From Streptomyces sp. NBC_00224 (lineage in GTDB: Bacteria; Actinomycetota; Actinomycetes; Streptomycetales; Streptomycetaceae), in assembly GCF_041435195.1 (NCBI RefSeq), contig NZ_CP108106.1, positions 4,994,501-5,058,500 on the forward strand: a stretch of DNA of 64,000 bases. The letters are read 5' to 3'. Position numbers and translations under genes: made by a program. Each line of letters opens with the position of its first letter. Position 1 is the first letter of the stretch. The notes below the pieces were generated by a model. The model was not told the DNA's origin. It saw nothing but the letters and a program-made list of their open reading frames with translations, and did no database searches. This document shows positions 14,800 through 58,000 of this stretch, in pieces.

Positions 14800-14945
14800 G
14801 CACCGTGCGCACGCGCCGAATCCCGAAAGGGAACCGGGGAACCACCAACTTGGGGTGAATCGGGCACCTTTGTACCTTTGAAGAGGTGCCCGTAGGAGAC
14901 CTTCCTGCTCCGAACCCGTCAGCTAACCCGGTAGGCGAGAAGGAA
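14800..14945 (+). promoter_or_regulatory. cyclic di-AMP riboswitch (ydaO/yuaA type)
   Basis: The leader of the M23 peptidase gene matches the conserved core of the ydaO class: GGGAACCGGGGAACC, then GGGGTGAATCGGGC, a variable stem (CACCTTTGTACCTTTGAAGAGGTG region, 14866-14889), CGTAGGAGACC, and CCGAACCCGTCAGCTAACCC with GGTAGGCGAG. This class binds c-di-AMP and in Streptomyces is known upstream of resuscitation-promoting-factor and other wall-hydrolase genes, lowering expression when c-di-AMP is high. It ends just before the AAAGGAG ribosome site (14948-14954). A promoter is likely in the AT-richer 14750-14766 stretch. Confidence 0.93.
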
Positions 14946-14961
14946 GGAAAGGAGCGCCCCA

Positions 14962-22055: not shown

Positions 22056-22779
22056 GCGCCACCCCTCGACACAGACGGCGTCCCCCGGGGCCGCGCCCCG
22101 GGTCCGTCCGGCCGCACAATCGTGTGGCCGAGCCCCCAGGAATATGCCGCCCGCGGAGAACAGCAGTACACCCAGCGTAGTTCGCCGCATCCCGACCGTT
22201 AAGAGGCGGTGTTCCGGATGGCGAGATTGTTTTCCGTACGGACGAGTTCGGTCGCTGTCTGTGTGCTCCGGGTGTGTGGCCGTGCGCGGTGCGTGCGCTC
22301 TGGCCCGCGTGGAGCGGGGAGCGCTTCCATGTCAGGTGCGTGGGTCGGCCCGCTGAACTGGATCCAGTGGGCTGGGGGACACCGTCGCCTCAATCCCCGC
22401 GGGCGGCGGACCGGTCCGGGAGGCGGACAGCGCCTCCCGGACTGTGGGTCTTCTCCGCCGGCTTCACTGCCGGTTTCATGCCCGCTTCGAGGCGCCCGCC
22501 ACGCGCGCCCGGGGCGAAGTTGGCCGAAAAGCGACGGTCCCGCACCACCCGGAAACGTCACTCGCGCTCGTCAGAAGAGCTGTCAATCGGCCATCCATGG
22601 GGGCGCGTTCACTTTTTGCGCGCGCTACCCCGAGGCCCCTCTCGTACGCCATTGTCATGGCAGCATGGTCCCGAGCGACCTCAGAACCGCACGGACACAC
22701 CCCGCCGTACGTCCGCGTACGGCCGGTCCCGGTTCTGTCGGCGCGTACGACGGGTTGTCCACAGGCTGTGGAGGCGGCG
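22056..22779. other. 725-bp divergent intergenic region with several dyads
   Basis: No gene is supported. It contains the 12-bp palindrome ACTGGATCCAGT (22357-22368); a perfect 11-bp hairpin, GTCCGGGAGGC (22414-22424) with GCCTCCCGGAC (22432-22442); a perfect DnaA-box sequence TTGTCCACA (22755-22763); and the dyad TCCACAGGCTGTGGA (22758-22772), which overlaps the GGAGG of the next gene. Length and dyads suggest dense regulation. Confidence 0.6.
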
Positions 22780-28200: not shown

Positions 28201-28427
28201 CCGACCTCGGTGAACTCGCCCTGACCGTACGGGTGTTGGCGGCCGCCGGGACCTGGCGCGCGGGGATCCCCCTGTGGCCCCGCGACCGGGCTGCCCTGGA
28301 CGCGCTCCGCGACCGGCTGCGCGAAGAGCTCGGGCCTCGCCTCTATGGGGAGGAGCAGGCGGCGGGGGCCGGGCTCACGACGACGGAGGTCGCGGGGCTG
28401 CTGGAGGAAGTCGTCAACGGCAGTTGA
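25215..28427 (+). CDS. AfsR/SARP-family regulator (BTAD + NB-ARC + TPR)
   Basis: GTG 25215 is chosen because the product then begins RYRILGVTE, the usual start of the winged-helix domain; 1070 residues. Order: OmpR-like Trans_reg_C (about 10-90), BTAD domain (95-240), NB-ARC ATPase with Walker A GPGGSGKT (287-294), Walker B TLLVLDNCEHV and the LATSREPL sensor motif, then a long helical TPR-like sensor. AfsR-type regulators integrate phosphorylation or ATP signals and activate secondary-metabolite or developmental genes. A low-complexity GEGSGEGSGEG linker lies near residue 670. It converges with the sigma-factor gene (stops 13 bp apart on facing strands), with no terminator between. Confidence 0.9.
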   Translation: MRYRILGVTEAQDEHGQNVPLGGPRLRALLTALAARADRPTPVPLPTLIDAIWPDDPPHDAPAALQALVGRLRRTIGREAVASEPGGYRLAVDAPHDIDLFAFERQIRTGTRQLDGGDPDTAAETLRTALALWRGPALADLPDRAAAAAGPDAQRLAALRARIEADLRRGATAHLPAELAALIESHPYDEPLHAQLIRALRAEGRTADALLAYETARRTLADALGADPGPELAALHQELLNPAPDVRPAPEALGNLRPRLTSFVGREPELAAIRRDLAAHRLVTLTGPGGSGKTRLAEESAAHTPAWLVELAPLDHPDAVPGAVVSALGLRETTLLGRDGQPHPDDPVARLVDHFAGAPRTLLVLDNCEHVVDAAARLAETLLTRCPALRILATSREPLGVPGERVRSVEPLPPDPAHRLFAERARTVRPDFDPADDPEAIAEICRRLDGLPLAIELAAARLRLLAPRQIADRLDDRFRLLTSGSRTVLPRQQTLRAVVDWSWDLLDERERAVLRRASVFAGGWDLAAAQAVCGSTDDLAALVDKSLVVAAPDPDTGGMRYRMLETIHEYATERAAETPSLLDDAARAHTAYYRELAQEADPLLRSHGQLSWIRRVERELDNIRAALHRATVTDPQPVEARDIALAMGWFWWLRNYRSEGVGWVDRILGREGSGEGSGEGADACPDDPDAPDYWPRMRLALLRIFLIEESGGPAERLRTPEALAEMARLREAFGRGGPEAARFPGLLWPFAVFLAQGPGSARESMDVVVTNCRAYGGEWEIGVSLMFRTHMVIDMPGGVWDIDGDLAELRTLSRRVGDRWMRAQVASAAGEAAMMRGLPAQARPEYEEALGLAREVGAHAEAPFLLARIAELTYRAGDLDGAVKILDEAEAEAVRYGVRDSASYIHYQRACMALDAGDAVTARAECDAAQAATVRSTPPPHFTAILEALDARVAAIESGPAVGVRGLASALRMADAAGCAEILLAHFAEGAAQLLPDLGELALTVRVLAAAGTWRAGIPLWPRDRAALDALRDRLREELGPRLYGEEQAAGAGLTTTEVAGLLEEVVNGS

Positions 28428-30330
28428 GGACCGACTTCGCCCAGTCCGCCAGCGCCACCGAACCGAACGGTGTGTGCGGATCGACCACCAGGCGGATCGT
28501 GCGATGGCCGGTGAGGTCGGCGTGCACCGGCACCGCCGGGTCCCCGCCGTGCATCACGGGCGAGCGCCACAGCAGGGTGTGGTCGCCGTACACCGAGAAC
28601 CGCACCGCGCCCAGCCCCATGGTCAGGTCGTCGACCCCGGCGAACGCGTCGTAACTGGAGCACTGCCGGTTGAGGTCGATCGTCACGGAGGAGCGGGCGT
28701 GCACGGTCACGCCGTGGCTGTACGGCCTGCCGTCGATCTCCATGCCCCAGCGCTGCCAGAGCCAGCTGGACGCGCCGAGCCGCACCTCGGGCTTGGTGTG
28801 GTCGCCGAACGCCCCGTACTGGAGCCGGTTGATCTGGTACACCGCCGCCGGGGGCGGCGGCGGAGGGGGCGGTGTCGGCTTCGGGGGCGTGGGCTTCGGC
28901 GGCGAAGGGGCCGGCTTCGGCTTCGGCGTCGGCTTCGGGCTGGGCTTCGGCGGCGCGGGCTTCGGCGGCTTCGGCGCGGGCTTCTTCGGTGGCGGCGGCG
29001 GTACGGGCGCGGGCGGCGCCGGGGGCTCCGGCGCGGGGGAGGGCGGCGGCTTCTGCGGGACCACCGGCACCACGGCCGGCGGCTTGGCCTCGGGCTTCGG
29101 CGCAGGCTTGGTGTCGTTGCCGCTCAGCGCGAAGACCACGCCCGCGGCCACCGCGACGGCGACCGCCGCCGCGATGCCCGCCTTGGCGGGCGCGCCGAGC
29201 CCCTCGGAGGCGGCGGCCCCGCCGGCCGCGCCTCCGGACGAACTCCCGCCCGTGGCCGCCGCGGCGGCACCGGCGCCCGCCGCACCGGCGGCGCCTCCCG
29301 CCACGATCCCGGCGGCCTTGAGCGAGTACCCGGCGGCGAACCAGCCGACCATCGCGACCGGCAGCAGCGCGGGGATCCCGGCGTTGACGTCCTTGAGCTC
29401 GACGACCGCGACCCGGCACTTGGCGCACTCCTCCAAGTGCTTGCTCAGGCCCCGCTCGGCCCGCACCCGCAGCCCGCCGCGCGCGTACGCCCCGAGCCGG
29501 TCCGCGTAACGGGCGCAGTCGCCGCCCTCGGTGAGCGAGGTGGAGACGTGCGCCTGCAGATACGCCTGCTTGAGGCCCTCCCGGGCCCGGCTGGCGAGGA
29601 CCGCCGTGGCGTTGGCGCTCAGCCCGAACAGCGGCGCGATCTCGCTGGGCGACTCCTCCTCGACGGTGGTGTGCCAGAGCACCGCCTGCCACCGCTCCGG
29701 CAGCGACCGGAACGCCTGCATGGCCAGCGACTGCTCGGCCTCGTGCATCGCCCGTACGTCCGCGCCGAGGTCGACCGTGTCGTCGTCCCGGCCGTCCGAG
29801 GTACGGGCGGCCTGGTCGGCGAAGAGGGCGAAGTCCTCGACCAGTTGCTCCCGCTTGGCCGTCTTCGTCCAGGAGGCGGCGACGCGGCGCACGGTGGTCA
29901 TCAGATAGGCGCGCACGGCCTGTTCCGGCCCGGCGCCGCCGCGCACCGCCTGGAGCGTACGGGCGAACACCTCGGCCGTGAGGTCGTCGGCCGTGTGCGC
30001 GTCCCGGCAGCAGCTGCGGGCGTACCGGCGGACCGCGTCCGAGTGACGCCGGAACAGCTCCTCGTACGCGGTGTCGTCACCGGCCCGCATCCGCTGGATC
30101 AGCTCGGCGTCGGCGGTGGTCCGCTCACGCTGCTGCGGAACACCGGGTGCGGGCGGGGCGTCGGACTCCTGGGCGGGGCCCCACGGCCCGGGCAGCACGG
30201 TCCCGCCGGGCTCGCCGCCGCCGTCGGTACGGCCACCGGGGCCGCCCTGGCTCGGCACCTGCCGCGAGGGCAGACCGTCCGGCTCGGTGCCGCTGCCGCC
30301 GCCGAGCTCGTCCCGCCCTTCAACGTTCAT
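28414..30330 (-). CDS. ECF sigma factor fused to anti-sigma zinc finger, TM anchor and NPCBM domain
   Basis: ATG 30330; 638 residues. Order: Gly/Pro-rich leader (1-70); sigma region 2 (about 76-150, AYEELFRRHSDAVRRYA and DDLTAEVFARTL); region 4 (200-260, SLPERWQAVLWHTTVEEESPSEIAPLFGL in part); a zinc-finger anti-sigma motif KHLEECAKC (H298, C302, C305); a TM helix (about 385-405); a long Pro/Lys-rich wall-spanning stretch (410-495); and a C-terminal NPCBM carbohydrate-binding module (500-638) ending in a Cys pair. This matches the architecture described for the ECF52-like group. It would be a membrane-tethered sigma factor sensing an extracellular glycan. It lies downstream of atrA on the same strand. 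Confidence 0.9.
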   Translation of the reverse strand: MNVEGRDELGGGSGTEPDGLPSRQVPSQGGPGGRTDGGGEPGGTVLPGPWGPAQESDAPPAPGVPQQRERTTADAELIQRMRAGDDTAYEELFRRHSDAVRRYARSCCRDAHTADDLTAEVFARTLQAVRGGAGPEQAVRAYLMTTVRRVAASWTKTAKREQLVEDFALFADQAARTSDGRDDDTVDLGADVRAMHEAEQSLAMQAFRSLPERWQAVLWHTTVEEESPSEIAPLFGLSANATAVLASRAREGLKQAYLQAHVSTSLTEGGDCARYADRLGAYARGGLRVRAERGLSKHLEECAKCRVAVVELKDVNAGIPALLPVAMVGWFAAGYSLKAAGIVAGGAAGAAGAGAAAAATGGSSSGGAAGGAAASEGLGAPAKAGIAAAVAVAVAAGVVFALSGNDTKPAPKPEAKPPAVVPVVPQKPPPSPAPEPPAPPAPVPPPPPKKPAPKPPKPAPPKPSPKPTPKPKPAPSPPKPTPPKPTPPPPPPPPAAVYQINRLQYGAFGDHTKPEVRLGASSWLWQRWGMEIDGRPYSHGVTVHARSSVTIDLNRQCSSYDAFAGVDDLTMGLGAVRFSVYGDHTLLWRSPVMHGGDPAVPVHADLTGHRTIRLVVDPHTPFGSVALADWAKSVLNCR

Positions 30331-37685: not shown

Positions 37686-42612
<4,927 letters not shown>

Positions 42613-42690
42613 TCAGTTGCTCGCGTCCACTGTGTTAGTTCTGAAATAACGAACAGCCGTGTTGTTGCCCGGTTTCGTTAATTTCATAGT

Positions 42691-42809
42691 GTTTCGGTGG
42701 TCATAGCGTTAGGGAAACGCCCGGTTACATTCCGAACCCGGAAGCTAAGCCTTTCAGCGCCGATGGTACTGCAGGGGGGACCCTGTGGGAGAGTAGGACG
42801 CCGCCGAAC
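42691..42809 (+). rRNA. rrf: 5S ribosomal RNA
   Basis: About 119 nt, starting GTTTCGGTGGTCATAGCGT and ending GACGCCGCCGAAC, with terminal helix pairing. Typical actinobacterial 5S. Confidence 0.96.
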
Positions 42810-43490: not shown

Positions 43491-45140
43491 CTACGGCGTC
43501 AGTGTCTCCGTCCAGCGGGCCCGGGCCTGTTCGGCCGAGCGGAGCAGGACCAGGGTCGGGAGGCCCAGGTCCTGGCCGGTCGACAGGAGTTCGGGCAGGC
43601 GCGGCAGCGGCGCGACCGCGGCCACGTCGTCCAGGACCAGCGTCATTGGTGGGTCGAGCCGACCGTCGGGTGACCGTTCGGCCATGCGGCGGCCGCGCTC
43701 GACCACGTCTGAGGCAAGGGCGGTCAGAAGCGGCATCGCGGCGGGGCGGGACCGCGGATCCTCGATGGCTTCACCCACCACGTAAAGCGTGCCCCCTTCC
43801 GCGGCGAATGATTCCAGTGCGAGCGAATCCGCTCGGTTCGGTGTGCAGGCCTCGCGGATGTGGATCGAGGAGAGCGCGTCGAGCGCACGGGCCGTCAGCT
43901 CCTGGGCGATCTCCCGGCGTTCGGGGTGCGCGGTCAGTGCCGACTCCAGCAGGCCCGCCGATCCGCTCATGGCCTTGGGGTGGGTGCGGAGTATGCGTAC
44001 GGCCTCGTGGGCGCCGGTGCCCTGGGCCCAGCGGTGCATCTGTTTGACGGCCTTGCCGTCCCGGCTGTCCAGCGCGGCCGCGTGCAGCCAGCACCGCAGC
44101 AGGGTCTCGGCGGTGTCGGCCATGGCGGCGTCTATACGGGCCTGCGGGCGTACGGGCGCGAGCAGCGCGGTCGCGCGCGCCGCCGCCACGTCCGCGTCCT
44201 CGCAGCCGCTCGTGGGCGACCAGTGCAGCCGTGCCGGAGTGTCGCAGAGGTGCCCCGGGTCGTACACGTGCACAGGGCCGAGCTTCGCGCGCGCGTCCTT
44301 CGTCTCCGCCCAGAGGGTGGGGTCCGAGGTGATGACGAGTGCGGCGCCCTCGGCGTCCTGGATGGCCTGCACTGCTGTGGGGCGGCGGGCGTCGGGGCCG
44401 CCGTAGACGAGCCGGGGCGGGCGGGCCGCGCGCGGTGACGGGAGCCGCCCGGCTTCCGGGCCTTCGGGCTGCCAACTCGCCATGCCGGGCGCCGGGGTGA
44501 GGCCCGCGCCGCCTGCGACCCCGTCCGTACGTACCGTACGAGTCGCGCCCGTGCCCGCGGCCGGTCCCCACGCGCGCGTGCCCGCAGCATCGGCGCCCCC
44601 GTCGGCCCCGTCGGCGGGAGCGCCAGCCGCCGGGTCTCCGTACGCCGTAGTACGTGCCCCCGCGTCCACCACCGGCGGCGGTCCGGCCTGAGACTGGTGC
44701 GTCGGCGGCGCACCACCACCCGGCCCGCCGCCCCTGTTCAGGCCCAGCACCGGGTTACCCGGCATCGCGGCCGCCGCCTTGGCTCTCGCGCGTACCGCTC
44801 GCCAGCGCGACCACGTGCCCAGGGCGAAGATGAACAGCACCAGGAGCACGAGCAGTTGGCCGATGAGCAGGCCCCAGAAGAGGCCGTAGCCGGAGAGCTG
44901 GGCGGCGGGGGTGTCCGGCCAGGCGGCCGGGAGGTCGTGCGGGGCCTGGACCAGCTGGTGCATGGCCTGCGGGGTGCGGGTGAACGTCACTGCGTCCGGC
45001 CAGGCGCCGTGGCTGAACAGGCCCGACAGGCCCGTCGCCGTCCAGACCAGGACCGTGAGGCCGAGCAGGAACGCGAGCAGCCCGATCAGCAGGGAGTCGG
45101 GGATGCCGCGCTCCTCGCCGCGGGAGCGGGACTCCGGCAT
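43491..45140 (-). CDS. VirD4/TraG-like coupling protein, apparently degenerate
   Basis: ATG 45140 with GGAGG 10 bases upstream; 549 residues. Two N-terminal TM helices (about 17-37 and 86-108) and a disordered Pro/Gly/Ala linker precede a RecA-like domain. VVYDPGHL-like HVYDPGHLCD and the Walker-B-like LVLDDVAAVAPLPRLPELLS (499 on) are typical of T4SS coupling ATPases. The Walker A site, however, reads GGPDARRPT (247-255) without the GKT/S lysine, and the protein stops about 45 residues after Walker B, where family members continue. It may be a non-hydrolysing scaffold. Last gene of the T4SS-like minus-strand operon, 110 bp after the ATPase gene. Confidence 0.75.
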   Translation of the reverse strand: MPESRSRGEERGIPDSLLIGLLAFLLGLTVLVWTATGLSGLFSHGAWPDAVTFTRTPQAMHQLVQAPHDLPAAWPDTPAAQLSGYGLFWGLLIGQLLVLLVLFIFALGTWSRWRAVRARAKAAAAMPGNPVLGLNRGGGPGGGAPPTHQSQAGPPPVVDAGARTTAYGDPAAGAPADGADGGADAAGTRAWGPAAGTGATRTVRTDGVAGGAGLTPAPGMASWQPEGPEAGRLPSPRAARPPRLVYGGPDARRPTAVQAIQDAEGAALVITSDPTLWAETKDARAKLGPVHVYDPGHLCDTPARLHWSPTSGCEDADVAAARATALLAPVRPQARIDAAMADTAETLLRCWLHAAALDSRDGKAVKQMHRWAQGTGAHEAVRILRTHPKAMSGSAGLLESALTAHPERREIAQELTARALDALSSIHIREACTPNRADSLALESFAAEGGTLYVVGEAIEDPRSRPAAMPLLTALASDVVERGRRMAERSPDGRLDPPMTLVLDDVAAVAPLPRLPELLSTGQDLGLPTLVLLRSAEQARARWTETLTP

Positions 45141-45250
45141 GTCAGGCAACCTCCGGCGTGTCGGGCCAACTTGCGCGTGTCGGGGAACTTCCGTGGTGTG
45201 GACGGCCGTTGATCCGGCAGGCCCCTTGAGGGGAGGGGCCCGCCGGACTG

Positions 45251-46675
45251 TCAGGCGACGGTCGACTCGGGGGAGGAGGTGCCGGACATTTGCTGTTCCA
45301 TCAGGGCTGCCCTGCGCTCGCTCTCCGTCTCCAGCTGGCTCTCCAGTTCATGGGCGAGTACGTCATCGGTCGCCGCCGACTCCGTCATCGCGCGGTCGGT
45401 GAAGACCAGCGGCCGTTCCCGCTCGGTGATCAGGTGTTTGACCACCTGGACATTGCCGTTGACGTCCCAGACGGCGATGCCGGGCGTGAGCGTCGGGATG
45501 ATCTCGACCGCCCAGCGCGGCAGGCCGAGCACCCCGCCCGTCGCCCTCGCCTCGTCCGTCTTCTGGGCGTAGATCGTCCTGGTCGACGCCATCTTCAGGA
45601 TCGCCGCCGCCTCCCGCGCCGCCGCCCCGTCCACCACGTCCGACAGATGGTGCACCACCGCCACGAAGGACAGACCGAGGCGCCGGCCGAACTTGAGCAG
45701 CCGCTGGAAGAGCTGCGCCACGAACGGCGAGTTGATGATGTGCCAGGCCTCCTCCACCAGGAAGATGCGCTTCTTGCGGTCGGGCCGGATCCAGGTGTGC
45801 TCCAGCCAGACGCCGACGATCGCCATCAGGATCGGCATCGCGATCGAGTTGCGGTCGATGTGCGAGAGGTCGAAGACGATCAGCGGGGCGTCCAGGTCGA
45901 TGCCGACCGAGGTCGGTCCGTCGAACATGCCCCGCAGGTCGCCGTCGACCAGCCGGTCCAGGACGAGCGCCACGTCCAGGCCCCAGGCCCGGACGTCGTC
46001 TATGTCGACGTTCATGGCGACCGCCGAGGCGGCCTCCGGGTGGCGCAGCTGCTCCACGATGTCCGTGAGGACGGGCTGCCGGTCGGTGATGGTCTCGTTG
46101 ACGTAGGCGTGCGCGACCTTCAGGGCGAAGCCCGACCGCTCGTCCAGGCCGTGCCCCATCGCCACCTCGATGATGGTGCGCAGCAGCGCCAGCTGGCCCG
46201 TCGTGGTGATCGCCGGGTCCAGTGGGTTGAGCCGGATGCCGCCGTCGAGGGCGGTCATCGGGTCGAGCCGGATGGGAGTTATCCCCAGCTCGCGCGCGAT
46301 GAGGTTCCATTCGCCGACGCCGTCCTCGCCCTGGGCGTCGAGCACGACGACCTGCCGGTCGCGGAAGCGAAGCTGGCGCAGCACATAGGTCTTCTCAAGG
46401 GCCGACTTGCCGTTGCCGGACTCGCCGAGGACCAGCCAGTGCGGTGCGGGCAGCTGCTGGCCGTACAGCTGGAAGGGGTCGTAGATGTATCCCTTGCCGC
46501 TGTAGACCTCGCGGCCGATGATCACGCCGGAGTCGCCAAGGCCGGGCGCGGCCGTCGGCAGGTAGACCGCCTGGGCCTGTCCGGTGGAGGTGCGGACGGG
46601 CAGCCGGGTCGTCTCCACCTTCCCGAAGAGGAAGGCGGTGAAGGCGTTGGTGAGTGCGGAGAGCGGATCTCGCAT
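45251..46675 (-). CDS. VirB4-type T4SS ATPase (C-terminal ATPase half)
   Basis: 474 residues from ATG 46675. Walker A GESGNGKS (84-91), Walker B KKRIFLVEEAWH (about 290-300) and a RecA-like arrangement with VVVLDAQGEDG, TRTIYAQKTDEARATG match VirB4/TraC/ConE ATPases. VirB4 proteins power assembly and substrate movement in type IV secretion and conjugation; they normally include an N-terminal domain of ~200-300 residues that is absent here and seems to reside in the next upstream gene product. In the operon, 24 bp after the SCO6880-like gene. Confidence 0.88.
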   Translation of the reverse strand: MRDPLSALTNAFTAFLFGKVETTRLPVRTSTGQAQAVYLPTAAPGLGDSGVIIGREVYSGKGYIYDPFQLYGQQLPAPHWLVLGESGNGKSALEKTYVLRQLRFRDRQVVVLDAQGEDGVGEWNLIARELGITPIRLDPMTALDGGIRLNPLDPAITTTGQLALLRTIIEVAMGHGLDERSGFALKVAHAYVNETITDRQPVLTDIVEQLRHPEAASAVAMNVDIDDVRAWGLDVALVLDRLVDGDLRGMFDGPTSVGIDLDAPLIVFDLSHIDRNSIAMPILMAIVGVWLEHTWIRPDRKKRIFLVEEAWHIINSPFVAQLFQRLLKFGRRLGLSFVAVVHHLSDVVDGAAAREAAAILKMASTRTIYAQKTDEARATGGVLGLPRWAVEIIPTLTPGIAVWDVNGNVQVVKHLITERERPLVFTDRAMTESAATDDVLAHELESQLETESERRAALMEQQMSGTSSPESTVA

Positions 46676-46699
46676 GAGCAGGCCCCAATCAGCTCTCGG

Positions 46700-48250
46700 C
46701 TAGCGGCGGATGCCGGTCGCGAACGGCAAGGTGTTGACGAAGGCCCGGTGGTGCTCGCGGTCGCACCACTCCAGCTTCAGGTACGACTTGCCGGCCGAGG
46801 CGCGGATGGTGCGCTTGTCCCTCGCCAGGGCCTCGGGGGAGCGCGCCGACACCGTGATGTACCCGACGAGGTTGACGCCTGCCGCGCCACTGGCGAGATC
46901 TTCACCCCGTTGGTCGAGGCGGCCGTGGGCGGCGATGTCGCGCGGGTCGACGGTCCGGTTCATCTTGGCCGCGCGCGAGGCCTCGGCCTCGTCGTTGGTC
47001 TTCTCGGTGAGCATGCGCTCGATGGCGACCTCGGTGGGTTCGAGGTCCATGCAGACCGCGACCGTACGGATCACGTCCGGGGTGTGGACGAGCAGGGGGG
47101 CGAGGAAGTTGACGCCCACCGGGGTCATCGGCCACTCCTTCACCCACGCCGTGGCGTGGCACCAGGGCGCGCGCGTGGAGGACTCGCGGGTCTTGGCCTG
47201 GAGATAGGTGGGCTCGACGGCGTCCAGCTCGGCGGGCCAGGCGTTGCGCTTGGTCATGGCCTGGATGTGGTCGATGGGGTGGTCCGGGTCGTACATGGAG
47301 TGCACGAGCGAGGCGAGCCGCCCCTGGCCGAGCGGCTGGCGCACCCGGATGTCGGCCTCGGCGAGCCGGGCGCAGATATCGGTGAGCTCACGGGCCATGA
47401 CGACGGCGAGCCCGGCGTCCCGGTCGAGCTTGCGGCCGTGCTGGGGGCGGGCGGCGCGGGCCATGGCGTGCGCCTCGGCGGCGAGCTCGCGCGAGTACTG
47501 CATACAGGCGACGAGATACGCGCGGTGCTGCTCGCTGGAGGTGGAGACCATCGACTGGAGCTGCTCGTACGACTCCTGGAGCCAGCCGGGTGAGCCGTGG
47601 TCGCCGCGCTGGGCGACGTCCTTGGCGTGCGCGTCCGGGTCGGCGGGCAGGGTGCGGGCGAGCATCTGGAGGCGGGTGACGAACCCGTCGCCGTTGGCGA
47701 CGTGCTTGAGCAGCGTGCCGAACCGGTCGACGAGGGCTTCCTGGTCCTCCGAGTCGCGCAGGCCCACACCGGGGCCCTCGATCTCGATGGCGGCGGTCAC
47801 CGTCCGGCGGTCGGCGTGCAGCAGTACGGCGATCTCGTCGGGGCCGAAGGGCGCGGCGAGCCAGCTGATCCGGCCGATGCCGGGCGGCGGGCCGACCTCG
47901 ACCTCGCGCCCGTCGCCGCCCACACCGGCCTCCATGGCGGAGGAGCGGTAGGTGGTGCCGCGGCGCAGTGAGCGTTTGTAGCTGCGGTTGATCTCGAACC
48001 ACTTGTAGAACGTGCGGTGTTTGTACGGGAGGTACACCGCGGCGAGCGCCAGCATGGGGAAGCCCATGAGGAGCACGATCCGCAGGGACAGGACGGGGAC
48101 CAGCAGTCCGGCCATCATGCCGAGGAACGCGCCGCCGATGATCAGCGCGATCTCGCCGGTCTCGCGGTTCTTGCCGACGATGGCCGACGGCCTGGCCCGG
48201 CCGATCAGATACGTGCGGCGGGGCGAGACCGGATGGGACTGGGTCGTCAA
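46700..48250 (-). CDS. SCO6880-like protein: VirB3/PrgI-type membrane segment plus VirB4 N-terminal-like domain
   Basis: 516 residues. Two adjacent TM helices lie near 32-75 (IALIIGGAFLGMMAGLLVPVL and IVLLMGFPMLALAAVYLPY), followed by a large cytosolic domain without P-loop, with SWLAAPFGPDEIAVLLHADRR and KWYLKLEWCDREHHRAFVNTLPF-like conserved blocks (the latter given approximately). SCO6880-type proteins are found next to VirB4 ATPases in actinobacterial conjugation modules. Its start overlaps the stop of the preceding gene by four bases (ATGA), so the two are translationally coupled. Confidence 0.8.
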   Translation of the reverse strand: MTTQSHPVSPRRTYLIGRARPSAIVGKNRETGEIALIIGGAFLGMMAGLLVPVLSLRIVLLMGFPMLALAAVYLPYKHRTFYKWFEINRSYKRSLRRGTTYRSSAMEAGVGGDGREVEVGPPPGIGRISWLAAPFGPDEIAVLLHADRRTVTAAIEIEGPGVGLRDSEDQEALVDRFGTLLKHVANGDGFVTRLQMLARTLPADPDAHAKDVAQRGDHGSPGWLQESYEQLQSMVSTSSEQHRAYLVACMQYSRELAAEAHAMARAARPQHGRKLDRDAGLAVVMARELTDICARLAEADIRVRQPLGQGRLASLVHSMYDPDHPIDHIQAMTKRNAWPAELDAVEPTYLQAKTRESSTRAPWCHATAWVKEWPMTPVGVNFLAPLLVHTPDVIRTVAVCMDLEPTEVAIERMLTEKTNDEAEASRAAKMNRTVDPRDIAAHGRLDQRGEDLASGAAGVNLVGYITVSARSPEALARDKRTIRASAGKSYLKLEWCDREHHRAFVNTLPFATGIRR

Positions 48251-49626
48251 CGCCCTCCACCTCCTGTGCTGTTGTTGCCTTTGTTGCCGGTGTTGCGGCT
48301 GCTGTGCGGGGTGCCGCTGGTGGGTCCGGAGCCGTTACGGGGCGGGGGTGCGGCGGAGGGGACAGATCCGCCACCGCCACCGCCACCACCGCCGCCGGAG
48401 CCCCGGCTGCTGTGGGCGGCCACGCCGCCGGACATCGGGTTGGCGGGCCGGGGCTGGGCGTTGTTGTTGCCCTGGTTGCCGCGGCTGCTGTGGGTCTTGA
48501 TGCCCTGGGAGACCAGGGCGGCCGGGGAGGAGATCACGGCGGCCGCCTGGGAGCCGTCGGTGGCCTGCTTGCGGTTGGTGCGGGCGGCGGCGATCTCGTC
48601 GCCGAAGCCGGGGACGAAGCGGTAGATCATCGCGGAGGCGAAGATGGCCAGCAGGATGATGGCGAGGCCGGAGACGACCGCCTGGAAGGAGTCCGGCCCC
48701 TTGCCCGCCGAGAGCGCGCCCGCGAGGCTCAGCACGATCACGATGATGGGCTTGACCAGGATGATCGCGATCATGATCCCGGCCCAGCGGCGGACGTGGC
48801 CCCACATGTTCTTGTCGACGAGTCCCGAGTACACGACGACGCCGAGCAGCGCTCCCACGTACAGCAGGAGGGCGCGGATGTAGAGCTCCAGGAAGAGGAT
48901 GCCGGCCGCGAGGATGGTGACCAGGGAGACGACGATCAGCATGATCGGGCCGCCGCCGATGTCCGTGCCCTTCTTCAGGGCGGCCGAGAACGACCCGAAG
49001 AAGACGTCGGTCTGGTCGCCGGTGCCGGCGGCGATGACGTCGGTGACGGCGTCGGTGGCGTTGACGACGGTGTAGAGGATCAGCGGGGTGAACGCGGAGG
49101 CGAGCACGGTGAGCCAGAGGAACCCGACGGCCTCGGAGATCGCGGTGGTCAGCGGCACCCCGCGGATCGCCCGCTTGGTGACGGCGAGCAGCCACAGGAC
49201 GAGCGTGAGGATGGTGGCGGCGGCGAAGACGACGGCGTAGCGGCCGAGGAAGGCGGGGTTGGTGAAGTCCACCTTGGCGGCGGTCTTCACGAACTTGGAG
49301 AGCGTGTCGACGACCCAGACGGCGGCGTCGGCGCAGCCGCGGGCGAGGGAGTTGAGGGGGTCTGCGGGGTCGCCGGGGGCGACGGTGCCGCCGCCCCTCT
49401 GTGGCGCGCCCGAGGACCCGCTGTCGCAGTAGTCCCGGGCCGGCCCGGAGATCAGCGAGCAGGGGTTGCCGCTCTTGTCCGGCGCGGGTGACGGCGACGT
49501 GCCGGGCGTCGTCGGCGTCGGCGTCGGGGCCGCTGCCGCGCGGGCGGCGAACAGGAAGACGGCCGTGTGCAGAGCGGTTACCGAAGTGACGAGCGCGCGG
49601 ATACGGCTGCGAGGGCTACCGGGCAT
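48247..49626 (-). CDS. VirB6/TrbL-like polytopic membrane protein
   Basis: 459 residues. A signal peptide or first TM (SVTALHTAVFLFAARAAAA) and a Pro/Thr-rich extracellular segment with two cysteines (NPCSL, DYCDS) precede 6-7 TM helices (about 130-350; e.g. YAVVFAAATILTLVLWLLA, LIVVSLVTILAAGILFLEL). The C-terminal ~100 residues are disordered, Gly/Asn/Ser-rich, with repeated HSSRG motifs (three copies). Topology and position match the VirB6/TrbL inner-membrane channel of T4SS. Overlaps its upstream neighbour by 11 bp. Confidence 0.78.
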   Translation of the reverse strand: MPGSPRSRIRALVTSVTALHTAVFLFAARAAAAPTPTPTTPGTSPSPAPDKSGNPCSLISGPARDYCDSGSSGAPQRGGGTVAPGDPADPLNSLARGCADAAVWVVDTLSKFVKTAAKVDFTNPAFLGRYAVVFAAATILTLVLWLLAVTKRAIRGVPLTTAISEAVGFLWLTVLASAFTPLILYTVVNATDAVTDVIAAGTGDQTDVFFGSFSAALKKGTDIGGGPIMLIVVSLVTILAAGILFLELYIRALLLYVGALLGVVVYSGLVDKNMWGHVRRWAGIMIAIILVKPIIVIVLSLAGALSAGKGPDSFQAVVSGLAIILLAIFASAMIYRFVPGFGDEIAAARTNRKQATDGSQAAAVISSPAALVSQGIKTHSSRGNQGNNNAQPRPANPMSGGVAAHSSRGSGGGGGGGGGGSVPSAAPPPRNGSGPTSGTPHSSRNTGNKGNNSTGGGGR

Positions 49627-50461
49627 ACGTGAACCCTCCGAATTCCTTCACGGCGTTCGCGATCTCCTCGGAGCCGGACACGGTGTTGTCGCCGGTGACC
49701 GGTGTCGGGCCCTTCTTCTGCGCGGTCTCCAGGACCTTCCAGTCCGACCCGTTCCAGGCCAGCTTCAGCGTCATCGTGAACCAGTTGGTCGTGACCGGTT
49801 TGGTGGACTTCTCCCCGGTGAGGCCGAACAGGCCGATGCACCACACGTCGACGTTCGTGGCCTGCGGCGAGTAGCTCAGCACCTTGGTGCCCGCCGGGAC
49901 CGTCCGGTTGACGAACGTCGTGCCGACGGGCGCGGCGCCGTCCGCGGTGAGGCCGATCTGCTGGTTGAGGCCGGGCGAGTAGTTGGCGTCGAACCCCGCC
50001 TGGAGCTTGTCCTTGCTGGTGGCGTCGGCCACGGCCTCGACGATGCTGTGCCGGTGCGCGGTGTTGAACATGCCGTCGGAGCCCAGCGCCACCGCGTAGT
50101 TCGCCGCCGCCGACTGCGCCCCCTGTTCCGTCTGGGGGAAGCCCGTCGCGATGCCGGCCGTCTTGCCCTGGACCGGGTTCACGCCGCTCGCCGCCGTCGG
50201 CTTCGTGTCGGACTGTTTGGGGTCGTCGGAGGAGCCGTCGCCGCCGTCGCCCCGGTTGGCGAAGGCGATCGCGCCGACGAGGAGGACCACCACGCCGACG
50301 ACCGTGAGCAGGGAGCGCGAGGCCCGGACGGGGCGGCGGGCGCCGCCGTACACGTCGGCGCCCTCGCCCTCGGGCAGCCGGGTGCGCGTCTGGCGCGTAC
50401 CGCCGACGGTGCTGTACGCGTCTTCCGTGCGCCTGGAGTCGTGCTCGTCGCCGAGGCTCAT
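49616..50461 (-). CDS. VirB8/TcpC-like bitopic conjugation protein
   Basis: 281 residues. A ~50-residue cytosolic part, one TM helix (SLLTVVGVVVLLVGAIAFA, about 50-68), an acidic linker, then an extracytoplasmic domain with a pair of NTF2-like features (ALGSDGMFNTAHRHSIVEAVAD and TNWFTMTLKLAWNGSDWKVLET). This is the layout of TcpC/VirB8-type scaffold proteins from Gram-positive conjugation systems. Its stop overlaps the VirB6-like gene by 11 bp, so the set is an operon. Confidence 0.78.
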   Translation of the reverse strand: MSLGDEHDSRRTEDAYSTVGGTRQTRTRLPEGEGADVYGGARRPVRASRSLLTVVGVVVLLVGAIAFANRGDGGDGSSDDPKQSDTKPTAASGVNPVQGKTAGIATGFPQTEQGAQSAAANYAVALGSDGMFNTAHRHSIVEAVADATSKDKLQAGFDANYSPGLNQQIGLTADGAAPVGTTFVNRTVPAGTKVLSYSPQATNVDVWCIGLFGLTGEKSTKPVTTNWFTMTLKLAWNGSDWKVLETAQKKGPTPVTGDNTVSGSEEIANAVKEFGGFTYAR

Positions 50462-50667
50462 GCCGCGTCCGCCCCCTCAACCCTTCGCTGGTCCGTCGTG
50501 TAGTACGACGGTAGCCGTGCTGGTTCCCGCGCGGGCGCGGTGTGGTGACTCGACATCAGGGAGACGCAACCTCAGCCGGTGGGCACGACGGACGGATGGT
50601 GTGGGGAAGGGCCTGGGCGGACCCTGGGGGACGAACACGGCGGGACGGAGCCGGACCTGAGGACGGG

Positions 50668-50985
50668 TCAGACCGCCATCCCGTACACGATGGTGAACAG
50701 CGTGCCGAGCGAGCCGATGATGAAGACTCCGGTCAGCCCGGCCACGATCAGACCCTTGCCCTGCTCCGCGCTGAACGTGTCGCGCAGCGCGGTCGCACCG
50801 ATCCTCTGCTTGGCGGCGCCCCAGACGGCGATGCCGAGGCACAGCAGGATGGCCACGGCCATCACGACTTCGACCATCACCCGGGCCTCGTTGCCCAGGC
50901 TCCCGAACGGCCCCCAGTTGGGCGCGATCCCGCCGATGATCGTGGTGATGTCGCCCTTTTCTGCTGCCAGGTACACGTAACTCAC
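50668..50985 (-). CDS. VirB2/TrbC-like pilin-type small membrane protein
   Basis: GTG 50985; 105 residues with two TM helices (VEVVMAVAILLCLGIAVWGAA and GLIVAGLTGVFIIGSLGTLFTIV) and a short basic loop (KQRIGATALRDTF). As the first gene of the T4SS-like operon, with the two-helix hairpin size of VirB2/TrbC pilins, it is a candidate pilus or channel subunit, though the match is by architecture only. 206 bp separate it from the VirB8-like gene. Confidence 0.6.
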   Translation of the reverse strand: MSYVYLAAEKGDITTIIGGIAPNWGPFGSLGNEARVMVEVVMAVAILLCLGIAVWGAAKQRIGATALRDTFSAEQGKGLIVAGLTGVFIIGSLGTLFTIVYGMAV

Positions 50986-56986: not shown

Positions 56987-58000
56987 GTGCGCAAGGTCTG
57001 GATGGTCGGCGGAATCGCGGTCGGGGCGTGTCTGAGCTTCATCGCGCTGCTCGTCGTGGGCACGTACTCGGCGGCGGCGGGGCTCGCTTCGGGGGGCGGC
57101 GGTCAGTCCGTCGCCCTGGCCAAGGGCGCCGTTCCGGCGATCTATCAGCCGATCGTGCAGAAGTGGGGCAACCTCTGCCCCGCCATCAACCCGGCGCTGC
57201 TCGCCGCCCAGCTCTACCAGGAGAGCGGCTGGAAACCGGACGTCACCAGCCACGCCGACGCGCGCGGCATCGCCCAGTTCATCCCCGACACCTGGGCCGC
57301 GCACGGCGTCGACGGCAACGGGGACGGGAAGCGCGACATCTGGGACCCCCAGGACGCGATTCCCTCCGCCGCCTCGTACGACTGCGAACTCGCCAAGTAC
57401 GTACGGAACGTGCCGGGCGACAACACGAACAACATGCTCGCGGCGTACAACGCGGGGGCGTACCGGGTCATCAAGGCAGGTGGCGTCCCGCCGATCAGCG
57501 AGACCCAGGGCTACGTCAAAACCATCCGCACCCTCGAAAAAAGCTTCGCCCGCCCCACCACCCGCGTCCAGCCCTCCCAGCAGGCCGCCGGGGCCATCTA
57601 CTACGCGCAGCAGAAGCTCGGGACGCCGTATCTCTGGGGTGGGGAGGGGACCGCCGAGCAAGGGGGGCGGTTCGACTGTTCGGGGCTTACCCAGGCCGCC
57701 TACGCGAGCATCGGGATCGAGCTGCCGCGCGTCGCCAACGACCAGTACAACGCCGGCCCGCACCCCTCCCGCGGCGAGCTCCTCCCCGGTGACCTCGTCT
57801 TCTTCTCCGACGACCTCACCAACTCCCGCGCCATCCACCACGTCGGCCTCTACGTCGGCGGCGGCTACATGATCAACGCGCCCTACACCGGCGCCGTCAT
57901 CCGCTTCGACAAGATCGACGCGCCGGACTACTTCGGCGCGACCCGGGTCACCAAGGACGGCGCCGCCGCGTTGCCGACGTTCAAACCGGGTACGTGACCG
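56987..58000 (+). CDS. bifunctional lytic transglycosylase / NlpC-P60 peptidase
   Basis: The CDS ends at the TGA 57995-57997; GTG 56987 with GGAGG upstream; 336 residues. A signal anchor precedes a lysozyme-like transglycosylase domain with catalytic Glu79 (QLYQESGW) and ARGIAQFIPDTW, and an NlpC/P60 endopeptidase with Cys231 (FDCSGL) and His285 (IHHVGLYV). This architecture (CwlT/TcpG/VirB1-like) usually opens peptidoglycan for Gram-positive T4SS, which suits the T4SS-like operon 6-13 kb away, although many stand-alone Streptomyces wall hydrolases look similar. Located 58 bp after the kinase gene. Confidence 0.88.

Follow-up and report, generated by a model that had tools for sequence, protein, structure and literature searches.

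The closest described counterparts of the locus analysed here are the six cmd genes of Streptomyces coelicolor (cmdA-F, SCO4126-4131) and the next gene in number, tgdA (SCO4132). We studied a cmd-type locus in a 64,000-nucleotide stretch of DNA from Streptomyces sp. NBC_00224 (contig NZ_CP108106.1, positions 4,994,501 to 5,058,500 of the forward strand; hereafter the window), and suggest that it is, very probably, a domesticated type IV secretion system (T4SS) that works without coupling ATPase and relaxase. In S. coelicolor the six genes are co-transcribed and expressed in a stage-dependent manner (Xie 2009, PMC2782261; statements on this and the other papers cited by accession refer to the parts of them that were available). 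When the cluster is deleted, aerial growth is delayed, hyphae branch and form septa poorly, 6-8% of the spores are anucleate and blue pigment is over-produced; developmental defects were seen in S. lividans and S. avermitilis as well, three species in all (PMC2782261). Every single mutant but cmdA forms light-grey colonies, the cmdA mutant sporulating like wild type, and blue pigment rises only in the cmdB, cmdD, cmdE and whole-cluster mutants, not in those of cmdA, cmdC and cmdF (PMC2782261). Transfer of an SLP2-derived plasmid was unaltered in the cluster mutant (data not shown there). CmdB is membrane-located, was likened to VirB4 and FtsK with a predicted FtsK/RecA-type fold, and fails to complement when lysine 90 (K90) is mutated, instability of the mutant protein being left open by the authors; three cmd genes were likened to SLP2 transfer genes, and a type IV-like channel was raised for future study (PMC2782261). 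The tgdA gene is reported to influence differentiation and actinorhodin (by title, cited in PMC6585502), and in the 2019 transposon screen of that same paper mutants in cmdBCDEF and tgdA raise actinorhodin to an equal level, cmdA not being listed in the part available. SCO4130 is a glycoprotein (PMC6593405).

The cores of pIP501, pCF10 and Tn916 share with cmd the VirB8 NTF2 fold (pIP501 TraM, PrgL), a VirB1-like hydrolase (Tn916), VirB6 and VirB4. ICEBs1 is comparable to cmd in its conjugative core parts. Unlike cmd, however, ICEBs1, Tn916, pIP501 and pCF10 all have a relaxase and a working coupling protein. According to a T4SS review of December 2025, nearly all known functions of Gram-positive T4SSs are one-way DNA transfer, the exceptions being Streptococcus suis 89K and Saccharibacteria; the word cmd is absent from the available text (PMC12857230). 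Systems without VirD4, including Bartonella Trw, are proposed there to serve pili.

Core proteins and the coupling protein

The locus is the cmdF-A operon and, with the divergent tgdA, would make up a whole Gram-positive T4SS core (VirB1, a candidate VirB2, VirB8, VirB6, VirB3/VirB4-N, VirB4 and VirD4; table 1). All six open reading frames (ORFs) are present in the minus-strand order F-E-D-C-B-A which, with an SCO6880-family CmdC, is the arrangement of the cmd system; the likeness to S. coelicolor extends to gene order, families, K90 of CmdB, the SCO6880-like CmdC and the transglycosylase gene next in number, SCO numbers being assigned by order, family and K90 position and not by S. coelicolor sequence. 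A preliminary description of this DNA had listed six consecutive minus-strand genes of T4SS-like families in this order and pointed to a comparable set near SCO4126-4131; ORFs, profiles, homologues and the CmdE fold bear this out, and that set is cmdA-F (PMC2782261). Its protein list (VirD4-like, VirB4 and the others) stands, yet it missed both the VirB1-like hydrolase gene, which lies outside its coordinates, and the loss of ATPase motifs in CmdA. The "several 4-11 bp overlaps" that it mentioned are two, 11 bp between cmdE and cmdD (49616-49626) and 4 bp between cmdD and cmdC (48247-48250); the remaining genes do not touch, with 206 bp between F and E, 24 bp between C and B and about 100 bp between B and A.

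In profile searches CmdC and CmdB pass, CmdA remains under the cut-off, and CmdD, CmdE and CmdF have no meaningful direct match in Pfam or NCBIfam. CmdC is a member of the SCO6880 family (E 2.2e-54; NF042935, 185 bits against a cut-off of 60), which we take to be equivalent to VirB3 plus VirB4-N; its own genome contains one SCO6880 match above the cut-off and a second one far under it. CmdB matches AAA_10 (3.4e-12) and the TraG P-loop (2.8e-7) in Pfam, and its single match among PDB sequences is the VirB4-like protein 4ag5 (E 1.3e-6). The P-loop GESGNGKS is intact in all 22 loci examined (the window; L074-L093, all within Streptomycetales; and L068 of genome G299, from the same class and another order), and its lysine in the window protein is residue 90, which agrees in number with one of two residues reported in 2009 to be required (PMC2782261). 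CmdD is VirB6-like through its homologues, three of the ten scanned (L071, L073 and L131) passing TrbL/VirB6 PF04610, which the other seven and CmdD itself do not. For CmdE, no match was obtained with its profile against PDB sequences, nor with eight scanned homologues against the Pfam copy used; with the predicted fold, VIA-align ranks T4SS chains top, including the VirB8 NTF2 folds 3ub1, pIP501 TraM and PrgL, while Foldseek alone places chloroplast ARC6 at ranks 1 and 2 and the IcmL-like 5cnl at rank 3. CmdF shows two membrane stretches by hydropathy, and one of two homologues scanned gives a sub-threshold T4SS_pilin match (E 0.005). The parts of a Gram-positive T4SS found are a VirB4 with intact P-loop, a VirB8/TcpC-type protein, a VirB6/TrbL-type protein, an SCO6880-family protein and a VirB1-like wall hydrolase; the active coupling protein (VirD4/TcpA) of a conjugation system was not found, the Walker A lysine being lost at 14 of 15 loci.

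CmdA matches only TraG-D_C in Pfam, under the cut-off (17.6 versus 22 bits), and can be aligned to VirD4/TraG-type coupling proteins of mobile elements, whose GK[STG] and DE are both absent from the window protein. The Walker A lysine is retained at one of the 15 loci of the order and in none of the 120 closest relatives (the best 120 of 3871). Walker B DE occurs in neither set, DD taking its place at 9 of the 15 loci and in 116 of the 120; the mobile counterparts, on the other hand, keep the lysine in 22 of 22 and DE in all 21 readable copies (CmdA matches below 80 bits were excluded from the motif count). Two of the 120 relatives (P0060 and P0067) contain a GK[ST] pattern, rejected as a Walker A since it falls in the linker that follows the second membrane segment, off the Walker A column. 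The part behind Walker B, 140-241 residues in the 21 readable mobile copies, comprises 41-63 residues in nine of the 15 cmd copies, 4-13 in three, 115-122 in two and 354 in L091, where the ORF runs on. In a sister family, the CmdA at L085:7166-9040 (-) has GKA in Walker A and DD in Walker B, an intermediate stage of the decay. CmdA was not found at six of the 22 loci (L083, L084, L086-L089), and L068, where the contig ends, is not scorable. Judged by its motifs, CmdA survives only as a remnant without ATPase function, where it has not been lost altogether.

The preliminary description had also reported no relaxase and no integrase. The whole 9.18 Mb genome contains no match to the TrwC or Relaxase families (two Pfam models; other relaxase families were not searched), and no integrase, transposase or relaxase was found among 26 scanned neighbour genes, some of them without any family (between 22768 and the end of the window, 20 of the 21 genes outside cmd; in the next 14 kb, six of the 11 genes). 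The lack of a relaxase, combined with a CmdA that is dead or lost, argues that cmd is not a conjugation apparatus feeding DNA through a VirD4 motor.

Table 1. Genes of the cmd-tgdA locus and adjoining features (window coordinates)
Feature	Coordinates	Strand	Characteristics
cmdA-type gene (SCO4126 type), degenerate VirD4/TraG-type coupling protein	43491..45149	-	N-terminal membrane pair retained; Walker A GK[ST] gone; Walker B DE to DD; at least 100 C-terminal residues short versus mobile relatives
cmdB-type gene (SCO4127 type), VirB4 motor domain	45251..46675	-	Walker A GESGNGKS (lysine is residue 90); Walker B LVEEAW at 306
cmdC-type gene (SCO4128 type), SCO6880 family	46700..48250	-	N-terminal hydrophobic stretch in VirB3-like place; VirB4-N-like region
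cmdD-type gene (SCO4129 type), VirB6/TrbL-like polytopic membrane protein	48247..49626	-	
cmdE-type gene (SCO4130 type), VirB8-type protein with a single transmembrane stretch	49616..50461	-	NTF2/VirB8-like fold, residues 109-255; PF26526 (DUF8175) in relatives
cmdF-type gene (SCO4131 type), 105-aa pilin-like protein with two transmembrane stretches, VirB2 position	50668..50985	-	
tgdA-type gene (SCO4132 type), SLT lytic transglycosylase + NlpC/P60 peptidase, VirB1/CwlT-like partner	56987..57997	+	N-terminal membrane/signal stretch
Extra genes separating cmdF from tgdA in this genome	51330..55006		Trypsin-like, two without family, Abhydrolase_8
Ser/Thr protein kinase gene, likewise between cmdF and tgdA in this genome	55213..56928	+	
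rrn operon (16S, 23S, 5S) adjoining the cmdA end	37686..42809	+	

TgdA, distribution and descent

The tgdA product combines SLT and NlpC/P60 domains, and two of its 44 PDB matches are Tn916-like cell wall hydrolases. Both tgdA and cmdF are present at 18 of the 22 loci and are divergent in every one of them, with a spacing of 100-400 bp in 13 and of 1.2-6.0 kb in five, including the window; the genes between them vary among genomes, and the 13 loci leave no room for any. At L074, L079, L080 and L081, tgdA is absent from the stretches read, three of these four also being without cmdF. A whole-genome search of the genomes behind those loci (G080, G041, G247 and G109) and of two more from the same genus (G035 and G044) recovered both genes in 6/6, with matches 130-165 bp apart in G041, G035 and G109, 2.7 kb in G247 and 7.3 kb in G080, and adjacent in G044. 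In the Streptomyces genomes G041, G109, G035 and G247 the two remain a divergent pair away from cmdE-A, separated from cmdB by about 0.9 Mb (G109) or 1.2 Mb (G247) on the same contig, or located on another contig (G041, G035). Hence tgdA and cmdF travel as a pair, and we propose that TgdA acts as the VirB1/CwlT-like hydrolase of the cmd machine.

CmdC was detected in 292 of 293 Streptomycetales genomes, our own included; the single miss, G216, is an assembly of 850 contigs in which CmdB is missing too. The rrn operon lies beside cmdA at all four further Streptomyces loci scanned and at none of three outside the genus. The location is thus conserved, as the preliminary description had supposed. 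Besides the rrn operon at the cmdA end, csoR and a DUF47 gene lie 11-13 kb from cmdF. Neither the nearby integrase nor the patchy presence of an integrative conjugative element (ICE) was observed, given the 26 neighbours and the near-universal CmdC. At class level, any CmdC match was found in 112 of 394 genomes (40 of the 394 being of our own genus), and among those outside the order G299 (70%) was alone in having a strong orthologue. In four Streptomyces loci (L123, L127, L128 and L129) there is a further cluster of SCO6880 type, in which a TgdA-like gene accompanies CmdD and CmdC while CmdB stands apart; it may be of the SCO6871-6884 type.

Plasmid T4SSs of Streptomycetaceae (pMDJK44.2, MOBF; the SLP2 genes according to PMC2782261) have the same gene set as cmd, with coupling proteins that retain Walker A and B, whereas CmdA does not. 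CmdC matches occur in 85 plasmid records, ten with near-full-length relatives at 37-40% identity. Five plasmids were examined: all carry a TraM/VirD4-type gene, two a transglycosylase/C40 peptidase beside the pilin-like gene, and typing returned one MOBF (pMDJK44.2) and four non-mobilizable. In a CmdB+CmdC tree of 42 rows, hand-picked from 70 and subject to long-branch warnings (the 70-row set left out seven Frankia near-duplicates), 12 loci of the order and G299 form one clade (100/99), grouped with seven plasmid-type systems. Overall, cmd appears to share an ancestor with the plasmid T4SSs of Streptomycetaceae and to have been inherited in place across Streptomycetales. The ratio of nonsynonymous to synonymous substitution (dN/dS; Nei-Gojobori script, five hand-chosen pairs, the window being a member of four) is 0.06-0.09 for CmdB, 0.08-0.15 for CmdC, 0-0.13 for CmdF, 0.20-0.26 for TgdA (four pairs), 0.27-0.47 for CmdA, 0.25-0.60 for CmdD and 0.28-0.72 for CmdE. 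Constraint is strongest on CmdB, CmdC and CmdF: the motor, the SCO6880 protein and the pilin-like protein are the most protected.

A parallel was found in Frankiaceae, where one VirB4 homologue, most like a Streptomyces protein, had been reported as conserved in three Frankia genomes (PMC2266912). A match is present in 31 of 35 genomes, and the loci concerned (L062-L067, L072, L094-L115; 22 named) contain a DUF6112 pilin and homologues of VirB8, VirB6, SCO6880 and VirB4. No CmdA/VirD4 was found in any of the 22 stretches, several of which end at contig ends, and a tgdA homologue occurs in 13, several being shortened in the same way. The Frankiaceae VirB4 Walker A reads like GAVGSRKS, the G....GK[ST] pattern being absent in 22/22. 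A common domestication of the Streptomycetales and Frankiaceae loci was first proposed because they share synteny with a tgdA homologue. Yet the constrained tree is rejected (approximately unbiased test, p-AU 2.7e-75; run after a first tree had been seen, and under long-branch warnings), and mobile systems have the same tgdA-like neighbour. With a separate position in the tree and the joint clade rejected, chromosomal fixation with loss of the coupling function would have occurred at least twice, if the tree holds. Upstream of the Frankiaceae pilin gene lies an ORF with, in our own reading, a ParA/MinD-like look (no Pfam match in the two scanned). L114 and L115 (uncultured Frankia) have their CmdC homologue divided between two ORFs, and split matches suggest the same in G452 and G579; the system is possibly decaying in some lineages.

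Elsewhere in the window, we noted a cyclic di-AMP riboswitch (14804-14952), the Streptomyces small RNA Scr4115 (22338-22446) and a sigma-70 region 2/4 protein fused to an NPCBM/NEW2 domain (28414-30330, minus strand).

Possible roles of the cmd system

Overall, we favour reading cmd, with a probability of roughly 0.6, as a domesticated conjugation machine that, powered by VirB4, assembles a pilus-like or wall-spanning structure in aerial hyphae. Published genetics (PMC2782261) and motif decay agree, the only subunit dispensable for sporulation, CmdA, being the one that lost its motor. In VirD4-less relatives the remaining set builds an envelope complex and, by proposal, pili, and we therefore favour a VirB4-driven pseudopilus or wall conduit. 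TgdA would open the peptidoglycan, CmdC, CmdD and CmdE would make a membrane and wall-spanning complex, and in aerial hyphae CmdB would drive CmdF to assemble as a pilus-like structure or pseudopilus; this structure may affect wall growth, branching and septation, thereby indirectly chromosome segregation. The pilus or pseudopilus step is tentative and short of an even chance. More tentative still is the proposal in its entirety, namely a developmental Cmd-TgdA T4SS run by VirB4 alone, building a CmdF pilus/pseudopilus or wall conduit in aerial hyphae, with independent fixation of a second coupling-less T4SS in Frankiaceae. Bartonella Trw resembles cmd in being a VirB set of conjugative origin that lacks a coupling protein, and its retention is proposed to be for pili (PMC12857230); it differs in belonging to a diderm, serving host adhesion and having several pilin copies, whereas cmd is monoderm and developmental.

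Several observations weigh against this reading. No pilus or substrate is reported in the available parts of the cited cmd literature, and CmdF is only weakly indicated as a pilin, by position, topology and one homologue's sub-threshold match. The chromosome mis-segregation of the null mutants (6-8% anucleate spores, PMC2782261) also fits a DNA role, and the subunits are not alike in every assay, pigment responding to B, D and E only (PMC2782261). Although motor-dead, CmdA is present at 15 of 22 loci under a dN/dS of 0.27-0.47 and may still be functional, for example as a substrate receptor without ATPase; its structure model is poor (predicted local distance difference, pLDDT, 49.4; predicted TM-score, pTM, 0.28) and was not used for fold reading. 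The fast evolution of CmdD and CmdE, unusual for a tight structural core, speaks against a simple rigid one, and a "conjugative" ancestry depends on a single typed relaxase and on what is known of the family.

The 6-8% anucleate spores and uneven DNA of the null mutants (PMC2782261) are what a chromosome translocator would explain, with CmdB pumping or positioning DNA at sporulation septa in an FtsK/SpoIIIE-like manner via a T4SS-type pore, close to the suggestion of the 2009 authors. The predicted FtsK/RecA-type fold and membrane location of CmdB (PMC2782261), and plasmid relatives with coupling proteins, one with a typed relaxase, point the same way. Yet the DNA-feeding ATPase is dead or lost, and the cmdA deletion sporulates like wild type; pilin-type and wall-hydrolase genes, not obviously needed by a septal DNA pump, are kept and paired; and aerial growth of the mutants is already delayed and branched (PMC2782261). 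We consider such a pump decidedly unlikely. Export of a protein or peptide, with a developmental protein released without coupling ATPase as in the VirD4-less Ptl and Brucella VirB and CmdA perhaps a passive docking protein, is unlikely too, if a little less so. Protein-moving VirD4-less T4SSs are known (PMC12857230), the remaining domain of CmdA is conserved among 30 aligned relatives, and loss of an extracellular signal could explain why the mutant makes pigment early (PMC2782261); against this, the locus has no evident cargo gene, the genes between cmdF and tgdA differing among genomes with a gap below 400 bp in 13 of 18, and the available cmd literature yielded no secreted substrate. Finally, a defective integrative element, that is, a decaying ICE remnant without a role of its own, would account for the lack of relaxase (two models) and integrase (26 neighbours) and for the decayed CmdA, and surveys place relaxase-less clusters under defective ICEs. 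It is most improbable, contradicted already by conservation throughout the order with strong purifying selection on CmdB, CmdC and CmdF, and by loss-of-function phenotypes published in three species (PMC2782261).

A proposed domesticated morphogenetic machine

The developmental rather than conjugative role that the preliminary description had suggested agrees with the published sporulation mutants and unchanged transfer of the SLP2-derived plasmid; its statement that the function is undescribed does not stand, given the deletion phenotypes in three species, P-loop mutant and transfer test of 2009 (PMC2782261). New with respect to the available text of that study are the dead coupling protein, the VirB8 fold, the proposed VirB1 role of TgdA, the plasmid sisterhood and the Frankia parallel, and a fuller T4SS description of cmd was not found in the open-access literature. 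Two loci published separately, cmd and tgdA, are here joined into one machine. By its CmdC marker, a complete Gram-positive T4SS core is found in 292 of 293 Streptomycetales genomes; its DNA-feeding parts are broken or missing and sporulation mutants have been published, which opens a testable question in model strains, that of the role of a T4SS without coupling ATPase and relaxase. If our reading is true, cmd would be a Gram-positive T4SS with morphogenesis as its job instead of transfer, probably a rare case of a conjugation-type machine turned developmental tool.

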